Virus record (IMG/VR): IMGVR_UViG_3300020394_000003
Coordinates: 62,001 to 126,000 of that record
Strand: one strand, 5' to 3'
Source of the DNA: a virus
Length of the DNA: 64,000 nt
Positions 33,617 through 38,505 of the stretch are shown here, piece by piece. Under the pieces are notes generated by a model. It was not told the DNA's origin and made no database searches. It worked only from the letters and a program-made list of their open reading frames with translations. Made by a program: the position numbers and the translations under genes. The first letter of the stretch is position 1. Each line of letters starts with the position of its first letter.

Positions 33617-33787
33617 ATGGAGTCAATTAAGCTTGTTTTTGCTGGTTTTTTTATGGGGTTCGCAATCAGCTGTATTCTCGCATCAGTAGCTCGCGCCCCT
33701 AGTGTAACACATATCGACAAGGAGAAGCTACAAGACAAAGAAATCGAAGCTGTCATCTTGCTAGAGATTCCTGAAACTAATGAATGA
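33617..33787 (+). CDS. Small (56-residue) membrane-anchored protein
   Basis: ATG at 33617 preceded by AGGAGGA at 33607-33613, a near-ideal ribosome-binding site. The N-terminal FAGFFMGFAISCILASVA (about residues 8-25) is a single membrane segment, followed by a charged tail (DKEKLQDKEIEAVILLEI). The last 8 bases overlap the primase start, so the two are probably translationally coupled. It is directly downstream of the sigma70 promoter. Function unknown; it might be a membrane anchor or a host-takeover peptide expressed early. Confidence 0.65.
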   Translation: MESIKLVFAGFFMGFAISCILASVARAPSVTHIDKEKLQDKEIEAVILLEIPETNE

Positions 33788-34715
33788 GCATGAAAAATAT
33801 AAGATTGTAACAAAAGTTTTGGGTCACTCTTACAGATCTGGCACAGAACATTTGTACCATTGTCCGTATTGTAAGCATCACAAGAAAAAACTATCAGTTA
33901 ATTTTGAGCGTGATGTCTACAAGTGTTGGATATGTGATGCCCGCGGCCGCACCATTCGCCGTATTGTTAGACGTTTTGGAAATTTGACTTTATTAAGGGA
34001 GTGGGATGCAGTCGCCGGCCGCGTAGATTTGAGCGATTTTGATAATTTATTTCAAGAGTTTTACGAGCCAGAAATAGAAGAGTTGTGTACTCTTCCGCCT
34101 GAGTTTAAAACTTTGACAAACCAAAAGCTGTCGCTAGCATCTCGTCCTGCAGTTAGTTATCTTAAAAATAGAGGCATCAACAGAGAAGACTTGCTTAAAT
34201 GGAAAATAGGCTATGCGCCCGATGGAGAGTATAAAAATAGGATCATTATTCCTAGTTTCAATATGAATGGTGACGTTAACTACTTTGTAGCTCGTTCTTA
34301 TGACAATTCATATAGAAAGTACATGAACCCTAGGGCATCAAAGGATATATGCTTTAACGAATTGTATATTGATTGGGATAGCGATCTTATAATTGTCGAA
34401 GGTATCTTCGATGCTATCGTAGCAGGAAACGCAGTTCCAATTTTAGGCTCTAGCCTTCGCAAAAACTCAAAGTTAATTAAGAGAATTGTAGAAAACGATA
34501 CACCAGTTTACCTAGCTCTTGACGCCGATGCTGAAAAAAAGGCAGAAAAAGTTATTCAAACTATGCTAGAATGTGATATAGAACTTTACAAAATTGATGT
34601 CATGGGGTATGAGGATGTGGGCTCCATGACAAAAGAGCAGTTTCAATTAAGAAAACAAACCGCATCATTTGTAGACACCGACACTAGGCTTATGCAAAGT
34701 GTCATGTCAATTTAA
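33780..34715 (+). CDS. 61: DNA primase, T4 gp61-like
   Basis: 311 residues (T4 gp61 is 342). The N-terminal zinc finger has C28-x2-C31 (HCPYC) and C49-x2-C52 (KCWIC). A TOPRIM catalytic domain follows: LIIVEGIFDAIVAG near residues 202-216 carries the conserved Glu, and YLALDADAEKKA near 243 carries the DxD acidic pair. A middle NRIIIPSFNMNGDVNYFVAR segment matches the DnaG/gp61 N-terminal part of the core. The enzyme makes RNA primers for lagging-strand synthesis, working with the gp41-type helicase, which is not in this window. It lies directly before the Mre11-Rad50 fusion. Confidence 0.88.
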   Translation: MNEHEKYKIVTKVLGHSYRSGTEHLYHCPYCKHHKKKLSVNFERDVYKCWICDARGRTIRRIVRRFGNLTLLREWDAVAGRVDLSDFDNLFQEFYEPEIEELCTLPPEFKTLTNQKLSLASRPAVSYLKNRGINREDLLKWKIGYAPDGEYKNRIIIPSFNMNGDVNYFVARSYDNSYRKYMNPRASKDICFNELYIDWDSDLIIVEGIFDAIVAGNAVPILGSSLRKNSKLIKRIVENDTPVYLALDADAEKKAEKVIQTMLECDIELYKIDVMGYEDVGSMTKEQFQLRKQTASFVDTDTRLMQSVMSI

Positions 34716-34727
34716 ATTGGAGAACGA

Positions 34728-37700
34728 ATGAAGTTAGCTCATATAGCTGATACTCACATCAAAAACTTAAAGTATCATTTTGAATATCGCAAGGTTTTTG
34801 AACAACTATACGCCAAACTGAAAGAAGAGAATGTTGACTATATTATTCATTGCGGCGACATTGCGCATACGAAGACACAGATCTCGCCAGAATTCGTAGA
34901 ACTGTGTACAGACTTCTTTCGTAATCTAGCTGCGATTGCGCCAACTTACATTATTTTAGGCAATCATGATGGGAATCTTAAGAACAGCAGCCGTCAGGAT
35001 GCCTTAACGCCCATTGCGGACGCCCTAAATTGTAATAGACTACACCTGCTCAAGAACTCGGGAGAAGTAATTGTAGACGATTCTCTGACGCTTAACGTCC
35101 TTAGTGTGTTCGATCAGGATAACTGGGTTGTTCCGTCAGACGATTCTAAGATTAATATTGCTTTGTACCACGGCGCGATTAGTGGTGTGTCCACTGATAT
35201 TGGTTGGGTTATGGACCACGGTGAACATGATGTGGGAATCTTTGAGGGCCATGATTATGCATTCCTAGGCGACATCCATAAAACCAATCAGGTGCTAGAC
35301 CATGAAGGCCGTGTACGTTATTGCGGCTCAACAGTTCAGCAGAATCATGGAGAAACCAACGACAAAGGATTTTTGATCTGGGATATTCAAAGCAAAGATG
35401 ACTTTACTGTTAAGCACCATGTGCTAAAGAATCCAAAACCATTTATCACCATCGAGTTGACACCCAAGGGTCGAATGCCACGCGGGATCAGTGTGCCTAC
35501 GGGCGCCCGCTTGCGACTAGTAAGTAATAATAACTTGCCACTAACTCAGATGAAGCGCGCTTTAGACGTAGCTAAACATAGATTCAGCCCAGAAGCAATT
35601 ACTTTTCTAAATCGTGCTGCAGGACAAAGAAGCAACGTCGAGGAATTTACCGATAATCTTAAGGTTGAAGACTTGAGAAACCTTGGCGTTCAAGAAAAGC
35701 TAATCCGAGAATACTTGAAAGATTATGAAGTCGATGAAAGTCTTCTAGAAAAAGTTATTTCTTTAAATGCTGAATATAACAAGATTGTAGAACAGACTGA
35801 AGAAGTGGGCCGAAATGTAAATTGGAAGATCCATCGTGTAGAATGGGATAATCTTTTTAACTATGGCGAGGGAAACAGTATTGAATTTACCAACCTTAAC
35901 GGGATTATCGGAATTTTTGGAAAAAATTACAGCGGAAAAAGCAGCGTTATTGATTCTATTTTATACACGATGTTCAATACAACGTCAAAGAACGAAAGAA
36001 AAAATTTAAATATCATAAATCAAAATAGGCCACAATGCCGCGGCATGGTTGAGATTTCTGTAGATGATGTGCTTTATCGTATTGAAAGAACTAGCGAAAA
36101 ATATACTAAAAAATTAAAAGGCGAGGTCACGCTTGAAGCTAAGACAGATCTAGACTTTAAGAGAGTATGTCCAGTTACTGGAGATGTGGAGAGTTTGAAC
36201 GGCTTGAGTCGAATCGAGACAGACAAGAATATTCGAAAGCACTTTGGAACTTTGGAAGACTTCCTATTGTCAGCGATGGCTAGCCAGCACGGTGCCCTGC
36301 AATTTATTAATGAAGGCTCGACTAGGCGTAAAGAAATTTTTGCTAAGTTTTTAGATTTAGAAATTTTTGAACAGAAGTTTAAGTTAGCGAAAGAAGACGC
36401 ATCCGATACTCGCGGCGCTTTACGACGCTTGGAGGGTAGAAACTATAAAGAAGAAATTGAAACCGCACAGTTTGAACTACAAACAAACAATGAAGAATTG
36501 CGAAGCCAAAAGACACAGTGTAATGCACTAAAGAGTAAGATTGAAACAAACCATCAAAAAATAAATGAAATTGATAAAACGATTGAATCAATTCCGGCTG
36601 AGATTATTGATGTTGTAGATGTTAAGACAAAGATTAAAAACGCTAGGATGCGTCAAGAACGCCTAATTCAAAAAAATACTGAGCTTAGCAGTGAGCGTAC
36701 AAAAAATCAAACAATGTACTCTAAGATAATTCAGTTTCTTGATACTTTTGATATTCACGAACTTGAAAGAAAGCAAGAAGAAATTAGTACAATTAGAGAT
36801 GAAATCTCTGCTTGGCAGCGGAAGAGAGATGCTGAGCAACTAGATTTAGAGAGGTATAGGAAAAAACAAAAACTACTAGCTACTCATGAATATGATCCTA
36901 ATTGTGAGTACTGCTCTAATAATGAATTTGTAAAAGACGCTATTGCTGCGCAAAAGAAAATTCCTGCATCGACAGCACGTATGGAAGAGTATTTAGCAAA
37001 TATCACTACGCTTAATGTAGAGCTAGAAAAGTTGATGCCGGCTCAAGTAGAAAAACATGTGGAAAAATATTATAAAGTTGTTGATAAAAAAGCGACAGTA
37101 TCAGCTGCTATTGCCGATTTGAACTTAGAGATGGAAAAAAACAAGTTAGCCAAAGAGAGGTTATATCACTCCATTAAAGAGCTAAATTCAAAGCTTAATG
37201 AATATAATCAAAACAAAGAGGCTATTGAAAATCTAGAAGAATTGACGGCTAGTAAAGCTAGTCTGATGATGAAAGGCGAAGACCTTGCAGATAGTCTTGA
37301 TGTCTGCGAAGAAAAGATAATTTCACTAGTGCGCACAAACGGCTCCTTGGAACAAAAAGTAGAATCAATTAAACAAAGTAAGCAAGATTATATTGACCTA
37401 CAAGACGAGTTTGCTGCATATGATTTGTTTATGCGATGCATGCATTCTAACGGTATCGCTTACGATGTGATCAAAAGAAAGTTACCGGTAGTAAATCAAG
37501 AAATTGCTAAGGTGCTGGCTAACATTACTAACTTTGAAATTTATTTTGAAGATAATGGCAAAAAGTTTGAACTTTTTATTAAGCACCCCAAACATGAGCC
37601 GCGCCCACTAGATATGGGTTCCGGCGCAGAAAAAACTATCGCAGCTATGTCAATCAGACTAGCTCTGTTGTCTGTGTCTTCATTGCCAAAGGGAGACATT

Positions 37701-37889
37701 TTTATTCTTGATGAGCCCGGGACAGCACTTGATGAAGATAATATGGAAGGATTTATTCGTATTCTTGAACTAATTAAGATGTACTTTAAAAATATCTTGC
37801 TTATCTCTCATCTTGACTCGCTCAAAGATTGTGCCGATGTTCAAATCATGATTGATAAGAGAGAGGGGTACGCTAAAATTAATCATTAA
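34728..37889 (+). CDS. 47-46: Mre11-Rad50 single-chain fusion (T4 gp47 + gp46; SbcD + SbcC)
   Basis: 1053 residues in one frame. Residues 1-340 are an Mre11/SbcD nuclease: IADTHIK (D8, H10), HCGDIAH (about 41-47), ILGNHDG (about 80-86), YHGA and FLGDIHKTNQ. Residues about 368-1053 are Rad50/SbcC: Walker A GKNYSGKSS (about 397-405), long coiled coils, a zinc hook CEYC near 725, signature DMGSGAEKTIAAMS (about 961-974) and Walker B DIFILDEPGTALDE (about 990-1003), then ISHLDSL. In T4 gp47 (339 residues) and gp46 (560) are separate; together they resect DNA ends for recombination-dependent replication. Here the two are joined with no stop or internal ribosome-binding site that I can see, forcing a 1:1 ratio. 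Confidence 0.93.
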   Translation: MKLAHIADTHIKNLKYHFEYRKVFEQLYAKLKEENVDYIIHCGDIAHTKTQISPEFVELCTDFFRNLAAIAPTYIILGNHDGNLKNSSRQDALTPIADALNCNRLHLLKNSGEVIVDDSLTLNVLSVFDQDNWVVPSDDSKINIALYHGAISGVSTDIGWVMDHGEHDVGIFEGHDYAFLGDIHKTNQVLDHEGRVRYCGSTVQQNHGETNDKGFLIWDIQSKDDFTVKHHVLKNPKPFITIELTPKGRMPRGISVPTGARLRLVSNNNLPLTQMKRALDVAKHRFSPEAITFLNRAAGQRSNVEEFTDNLKVEDLRNLGVQEKLIREYLKDYEVDESLLEKVISLNAEYNKIVEQTEEVGRNVNWKIHRVEWDNLFNYGEGNSIEFTNLNGIIGIFGKNYSGKSSVIDSILYTMFNTTSKNERKNLNIINQNRPQCRGMVEISVDDVLYRIERTSEKYTKKLKGEVTLEAKTDLDFKRVCPVTGDVESLNGLSRIETDKNIRKHFGTLEDFLLSAMASQHGALQFINEGSTRRKEIFAKFLDLEIFEQKFKLAKEDASDTRGALRRLEGRNYKEEIETAQFELQTNNEELRSQKTQCNALKSKIETNHQKINEIDKTIESIPAEIIDVVDVKTKIKNARMRQERLIQKNTELSSERTKNQTMYSKIIQFLDTFDIHELERKQEEISTIRDEISAWQRKRDAEQLDLERYRKKQKLLATHEYDPNCEYCSNNEFVKDAIAAQKKIPASTARMEEYLANITTLNVELEKLMPAQVEKHVEKYYKVVDKKATVSAAIADLNLEMEKNKLAKERLYHSIKELNSKLNEYNQNKEAIENLEELTASKASLMMKGEDLADSLDVCEEKIISLVRTNGSLEQKVESIKQSKQDYIDLQDEFAAYDLFMRCMHSNGIAYDVIKRKLPVVNQEIAKVLANITNFEIYFEDNGKKFELFIKHPKHEPRPLDMGSGAEKTIAAMSIRLALLSVSSLPKGDIFILDEPGTALDEDNMEGFIRILELIKMYFKNILLISHLDSLKDCADVQIMIDKREGYAKINH

Positions 37890-37903: not shown

Positions 37904-38098
37904 ATGATGGCAGTAGTAAAAGCAAGGTTAGACGCACTAGTTGAAAAAATGATTTCTCGCAAGTTTATGGTGTGGCTCACGGCAACAGGGCTCATGGTTT
38001 GGGCCGGCCTAGAATCGTCAGATTGGGTGATTATCTCAGGAATCTATATCGGTGGTCAAACCGTTATTGATGGCATTGCCAAACTCAAGGGTGTTTGA
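37904..38098 (+). CDS. Small two-helix membrane protein, holin-like
   Basis: 64 residues with a GGAGG site just upstream (ATG at 37904 or 37907). Two hydrophobic segments are visible: FMVWLTATGLMVWAGL (about 21-36) and WVIISGIYIGGQTVIDGIAK (about 41-60), with a basic N-terminus. Size and topology fit a small holin, and similar short phage proteins with an IYIGxQxxIDG motif are often annotated that way. The next two genes are also membrane-associated, so a lysis cassette is plausible, but no endolysin is found in this window. Function is inferred. Confidence 0.55.
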   Translation: MMAVVKARLDALVEKMISRKFMVWLTATGLMVWAGLESSDWVIISGIYIGGQTVIDGIAKLKGV

Positions 38099-38505
38099 TG
38101 AGCGACGAGGCACAAACAAAAAGCATGCAACAAGCAATATTAAAATTTCTGTTATCTCACTGGAAAGAGGTGTTGCTGCTGCTATTATCCGTAGGTATAT
38201 TTTTTAAAATGCAAAGTGACATTAATGAATTACAAAAAGCCTACGACGCAGCCCGAGAGAGCTACGAAACACAGATCTCGGGACTTCAAGATATTCACAA
38301 AGAAGAAATAACAATGCGTGAAAAAGCTTTACAAACTTATCGCGATGCACTCGATACACTAGAACGTCAGTACCGTGAAGAACAGGAGCGAATTAAAGAA
38401 CGCACCGAACAGCGCAGAGAAACATTGACTGAAAATCATGTTGAGCGGCCTACAGAGGTTATAAACGAAATACAAAAACAATTTGGATTTGAGTATGTGG
38501 AGTAG
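38098..38505 (+). CDS. Membrane-anchored coiled-coil protein, possible inner-membrane spanin (Rz-like)
   Basis: 135 residues from the ATG at 38098, which overlaps the preceding stop (TGATG). A single N-terminal membrane segment, VLLLLLSVGIFFKM (about residues 25-39), is followed by a long charged helix (YETQISGLQDIHKEEITMRE, EERIKERTEQRRE), predicted coiled coil. This is the layout of i-spanins such as lambda Rz: short cytoplasmic tail, one membrane helix, periplasmic coiled coil. Position after a holin-like gene supports this. It could instead be an unrelated membrane-bound scaffold. Confidence 0.5.
   Translation: MSDEAQTKSMQQAILKFLLSHWKEVLLLLLSVGIFFKMQSDINELQKAYDAARESYETQISGLQDIHKEEITMREKALQTYRDALDTLERQYREEQERIKERTEQRRETLTENHVERPTEVINEIQKQFGFEYVE

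Follow-up and report, generated by a model that had tools for sequence, protein, structure and literature searches.

The locus studied here, at 34728..37889 on the plus strand, raises the question whether a phage carries Mre11 and Rad50 on one polypeptide and, if so, what such a chain keeps and what it alters. The window, i.e. the whole stretch of DNA that was analysed (64,000 nucleotides), comprises bases 62001-126000 of an IMG/VR virus record of 161,704 bp. We are largely confident that a marine T4-like phage here encodes a single-chain Mre11-Rad50 nuclease (gp47-gp46 / SbcDC), which would process DNA ends in an assembly of the usual type and whose hook apex is changeable. As a kind, Mre11-Rad50 fusions are already known and were published in 2011 (Yoshida et al., 2011; PMC3175470); the variation of the hook is apparently the new part, as it is undescribed in the literature searched.

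The fused gene and its surroundings

The first-pass annotation had proposed one Mre11-Rad50 frame of 1053 residues, and both the uninterrupted ORF and its Pfam and PHROG domains confirm this proposal. Pfam assigns Metallophos to residues 1-184, AAA_23 to 374-612 and SMC_N to 368-1042, and the PHROG profiles give an SbcD-like match over 1-376 (E 1e-36) and an SbcC-like match over 303-1051 (E 3e-57). The fusion is the sole AAA_23 and the sole Metallophos match in the whole parent record, which rules out a second gp46/47 copy there. A defence-system identity was also discarded, since the PADLOC matches LmuB and mad3 span merely generic SMC/Rad50 or phosphoesterase regions. A scan of viral sequences (IMG/VR) returned 423 homologous stretches, the best 80 of which were fetched first: all are full-length single frames of 1035-1078 aa, 54-88% identical and with no internal stop. 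The search for other gp47-gp46 fusions that had been suggested earlier is therefore answered by 80 of 80 of these IMG/VR homologues, and such fusions are deposited for cultured phages as well.

A GGAG about 6 nt before the ATG (34719..34722, plus strand as all features below; sequence 5' of the start AAATTGGAGAACGA-ATG) is the likely ribosome-binding site. Upstream, a DnaG-type zinc-ribbon primase (33780..34715) ends 12 nt 5' of the fusion gene, and a CHC2-type primase is recognisable directly 5' of the fusion, mostly less than 20 nt away, in at least 29 of the 67 relatives with enough upstream sequence. On the 3' side, an Rz-like spanin match (PHROG) at 38095-38505 lies between the fusion and the terminase, a lysis gene beside replication and packaging genes. 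The best matches of the terminase are Flavobacterium phage immuto and Microcystis phage Mel-JY01, and those of the portal are Mel-JY01, immuto and Rhodothermus phage RM378; the source phage is marine, T4-like and related to immuto and Mel-JY01, and probably to the Far-T4 phages.

The second half of the chain has the make-up of Rad50/SbcC: a long antiparallel coiled coil lies between the parts of an ATPase with Walker A, signature, Walker B and D-loop. The N-terminal ATPase lobe (residues 366-560; 35823..36407), supported by Pfam, model and fold match, carries Walker A GKNYSGKS (35919-35942). In the model, an ascending coil (561-718; 36408..36881) leads to the hook apex and a descending coil (736-905; 36933..37442) leads back to the C-terminal lobe (906-1053; 37443..37886; Pfam and fold match) with the signature SGAEK (37620-37634), Walker B/D-loop (37698-37733) and an H-loop SH. 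The Rad50 motifs named in the first-pass annotation were all recovered (Walker A at 398, CXXC at 726-729, signature at 965, Walker B/D-loop at 991-1002). An AlphaFold2 model of the monomer (52-sequence alignment, mean pLDDT 80.5, pTM 0.46) arranges the chain as phosphoesterase and capping region, two helices, an eight-residue linker, the Rad50 head from residue 366 and a single long antiparallel coil, whose apex falls at about 719-735. Its Rad50 part matches the Mre11-Rad50 crystal and cryo-EM structures 3av0, 5dny and 7yzo with Z values of about 30 over 350 residues, its N-terminus matches SbcD 7dog with a Z of 23, and a Foldseek search against viral models placed full-length giant-virus and phage proteins on top.

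Two kinds of hook at one apex

The window protein carries a CX2C hook (CEYC, residues 726-729; 36903-36914) within an apex of residues 719-735 (36882..36932), a segment that is exchanged for CX6C, CX7C or CX8C in most relatives. Across 117 distinct full-length family members (the first 81 proteins plus further loci, duplicates removed), 91 hooks are of the CX6C type, 15 are CX7C, nine CX2C and two CX8C; in the first 81 proteins, i.e. the window and the best 80 of the 423, the counts are 68 CX6C, nine CX2C and four CX7C. CX2C hooks stand in the context HEYDPxCxxC and CX6C hooks in PCGxx[FY]xxC-[KR]FI, and the Pfam zinc-hook model matches the apices of neither form. The cysteine pair itself is kept in every full-length protein; the one sequence that lacks it is a truncated frame. 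Since the two cysteines are always kept, zinc dimerisation is probably preserved in all hook forms, and from its sequence the CX6C hook is a putative zinc binder, too.

The change is limited to about 17 apex residues in the 81 proteins. Among 19 representatives, residues 719-735 are 73% (CX2C) or 67% (CX6C) identical within a type versus 18% across types. In the flanks 691-718 and 736-760, identity is 25-30% in all comparisons and does not depend on hook type. A tree of the head domains (coil excluded, 81 proteins) implies about seven undirected hook changes, at least six of which are forced by strongly supported branches, with seven in the 5-95% bootstrap range. Neighbours on this tree are mixed: the CX2C proteins of the window and L002 stand beside CX6C L004, and CX2C L003 stands beside CX6C L005 and L007. 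Besides, CX6C occurs in the distant relatives L111 and L113, and CX2C in the other Mel-JY01 relatives and in the separate phage Rad50s checked.

One explanation, which we put forward tentatively, is that the Rad50 apex acts as a changeable dimerisation cassette: discrete and probably mutually incompatible CX2C and CX6-8C hooks would have been swapped repeatedly with the flanking coil unchanged, perhaps so that complexes of co-infecting phages or of the host avoid cross-dimerising. Yeast Rad50 accepts an SMC hinge in place of its hook (2020 paper, PMC6969161), which makes a natural replacement of the hook plausible. A somewhat doubtful but serious alternative is that CX2C and CX6C alternate by repeated convergent substitution and not by exchange of a short apex segment. 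With a flanking coil that is merely 25-30% identical between lineages, 17 codons would not easily be exchanged by homologous recombination, and apex identity within a type stays near 70% whatever the distance, as constraint would give; however, each form is a discrete motif of some complexity (HEYDPxCxxC versus PCGxxFxxCKFI) and no intermediate occurs among the 117 proteins.

The family thus has a Rad50 zinc hook that tolerates, and repeatedly adopts, a cysteine spacing other than CXXC, and if the exchangeable cassette is real, CXXC would be a non-essential feature of Rad50. A 2026 paper on T4 Rad50 (PMC13402864) describes the CXXC motifs as 'absolutely conserved', we found no description of non-CXXC Rad50 hooks in the literature searched, and the accessible text of PMC3175470 describes no hook dimorphism among Mre11/Rad50 fusions. 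Whether hook chemistry sets dimer specificity is now directly testable by a 17-residue swap.

An aspartate in motif V

The Mre11/SbcD phosphoesterase domain (residues 1-230; 34728..35417) is followed by a capping-domain region (231-300, approximate boundary; 35418..35627) that is placed by the model and by an alignment of SbcD 7dog to residues 1-296. A complete set of Mre11 motifs had been claimed for this half. This holds for motifs I-IV (D8-x-H10, GD44, GNHD at 78-81, H148), but not for motif V, which reads GDIH (181-184; 35268..35279) and not GHxH, with Asp at residue 182 in place of the His of T. maritima (GHIH in the alignment) and of separate phage Mre11s. The aspartate is common to all members sampled from the older fused clade, L088 and Rhizobium phage RHph_TM61 among them; every separate phage Mre11 examined has the histidine, and so has the fusion of Xanthomonas phage XacN1 (GHFH).

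With D182 in place of the motif V histidine, the nuclease may be altered in its activity or in its use of metal. At the extreme, the fused protein would have no nuclease activity, and its main function would be that of an SMC-like tether or a sensor of DNA ends, which the invariance of D182 in the fused clade would suit. We consider this improbable, because the other catalytic positions (D8, H10, D44, N79, H80, H148, H184) are all invariant, the phosphoesterase domain is 82% conserved and, as established chemistry, aspartate can ligate metal. The same His to Asp change is reported for Mimivirus R555 (PMC3175470), a further point in favour of a lost nuclease.

The junction between the two halves

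According to model and alignment, residues 319-357 (35682..35798) form a pair of helices, 319-333 with 337-357, and the next eight residues, EEVGRNVN (358-365; 35799..35822), make up the linker. Separate gp47s from T4, from cyanophages and from jumbo phages align to this pair with their C-terminus, which is where the helix-loop-helix that binds Rad50 is located, although an HMM match of residues 313-344 to the helix-loop-helix of T. maritima has a negligible score. Conservation is higher in the linker (80% on average) than in the helices (63%), and residues 313-401 show zero indels across 81 proteins. The first-pass annotation had speculated that fusion removes the need for the Mre11 helix-loop-helix. 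Two predicted helices that align with the gp47 C-terminus and run into a conserved linker leave this idea unsupported: helix-loop-helix and short linker appear to be retained ahead of Rad50, and the covalent link would keep the Mre11 helix-loop-helix instead of replacing it.

One might suppose that the fused frame serves expression alone and that cleavage or re-initiation yields the separate subunits that act, but this is very unlikely. A weak TTG at residue 316 has AAGG upstream, yet it precedes the helix-loop-helix; a GTG at 360, near which a check for an internal ribosome-binding site had been suggested, has no Shine-Dalgarno sequence, as is also the case for a TTG at 330, and an ATG at 415 lies beyond Walker A. 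Neither 316 nor 360 is conserved as methionine in relatives, and a search across them found no conserved methionine near the Rad50 start. Thus all four candidate starts are unfit, and an internal start giving separate Rad50 was rejected.

An error of assembly or sequencing that turned two neighbouring genes into one frame can be dismissed. Separate gp47 and gp46 genes do adjoin in related jumbo phages, and overlap in L120, so that one base error could fuse them, but all 80 homologous contigs, each assembled independently, keep the frame, the conserved linker region is free of indels and cultured phages have the fusion too. This also settles the check for an assembly error at the junction that the first-pass annotation had called for.

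How the fused complex may work

Two chains would probably form the usual M2R2 assembly, in which the Rad50 heads depend on ATP, the helix-loop-helix of Mre11 sits on the coil base and zinc links the apices. The covalent link would set Mre11:Rad50 at 1:1, as already pointed out in the first-pass annotation and as follows from the architecture, with the short conserved linker running straight into the first Rad50 strand. At the other end of the coil, the apex would be a changeable module in which about 17 residues alternate between CX2C and CX6-8C and the cysteine pair is always kept. By analogy with T4 gp46/47, which act in recombination-dependent replication (PMC3175470), processing of DNA ends is the likely biological role, and the assembly may resect or trim ends for this mode of replication. 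For structural work on the coupling of Mre11 and Rad50, the fused chain offers a ready-made 1:1 complex.

Age and origin of the fusion

In a tree of the Mre11 and Rad50 heads from fused and separate phage complexes, the window family, the Mel-JY01 family, L111, the 735-kb phage L088 and RHph_TM61 group together and are all fused; L088 and RHph_TM61 form long branches and their placement is unsure. Judged from these sequences, the window-type fusion is old, being common, together with a GDxH motif V, to all sampled members of a broad clade. XacN1, which is also fused, nests among separate RaK2-like pairs (support 100/99), so that at least two fusion events took place in the phages sampled.

A profile of the fusion family found no match in immuto between 35 and 125 kb, its central 90 kb, or in RM378 1-49 kb. 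At the place of the window's fusion, the cultured phage immuto (L132, 24447-27130) has a primase followed by a 260-aa 'exonuclease', and a replacement of the Mre11-Rad50 complex is possible. Beyond viruses, plasmids gave two weak and partial matches, and bacterial genomes a few MAG contigs that are apparently viral or chimeric. In a WOR-3 MAG chromosome (L085, CP070664.1, 3956-6049), a fusion 64% identical over the first 627 residues runs into an N stretch and unrelated sequence, likely a chimeric join of phage DNA within a bacterial MAG. An Acidiferrobacteraceae MAG contig (L083, PBOB01000007.1; 24,260 bp) has the same size and match as IMG/VR contig 2802429371_000007 (L047) and appears to be phage DNA.

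Some relatives have an interrupted frame. The distant L087 (LR756508.1, 2501-6666) and L113 (1501-4723) share one conserved point of interruption in their Mre11 part, right after GDIHK-x-Q, which is occupied in L087 by a zinc-finger endonuclease-like ORF of about 300 aa and in L113 by a short insert with a stop; a group I intron was considered for both and rejected, as Rfam gave no match. In Stenotrophomonas phage RAS14 (L136, OP752703, 1501-4810), what looks like a frameshift close to residue 195 breaks the XacN1-type fusion, and its annotation covers the C-terminal 898 aa only; that of phage CM1 is likewise in two pieces.

Comparison with known systems

E. coli SbcCD and archaeal Mre11-Rad50 share the head and nuclease folds with the window protein, but consist of two polypeptides and have the canonical CXXC hook. 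T4 gp47/gp46, and likewise the RaK2, cyanophage and Herelleviridae pairs, have the same two activities, the same gene order and an alignable helix-loop-helix region at the gp47 C-terminus; unlike the window, they are encoded by two genes and have a GHxH motif V and a shorter coil, and their hook is CXXC. Xanthomonas phage XacN1 ORF305 is also a single-chain Mre11-Rad50, of 1099 aa and with a CX2C hook, but in contrast to the window family it is an independent fusion with GHFH as motif V. A closer counterpart is WWT39521 of Microcystis phage Mel-JY01 ('AAA domain containing protein'), a full-length fusion with about 29% identity, a CX2C hook in DPxCxxC context and a primase-like gene directly upstream; its host, in contrast, is a freshwater cyanobacterium, and a CX2C hook is the rule, with few exceptions, among the IMG/VR relatives fetched for this phage protein.

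Yoshida, Claverie and Ogata (2011; PMC3175470) described thirteen viral, plasmid and cellular Mre11/Rad50 fusions, including Mimivirus R555 and that of a Bacillus phage, and argued that helix-loop-helix and linker are retained in them. The R555 type shares with the window the domain order, the helix-loop-helix with short linker and the change in motif V (PMC3175470), but R555 is longer (1351 aa, with a longer coil, versus 1053 aa) and the window gene stands in the replication-packaging context of a T4-like phage. Their work also took in many metagenomic sequences, and the same authors inferred that the abundant R555 homologues of aquatic origin come from viruses smaller than Mimivirus, probably phages (PMC3175470). 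The window family fits this prediction of R555-like fusions in aquatic phages, so that phage genomes are now assigned to a group that was left unplaced in 2011 (PMC3175470).
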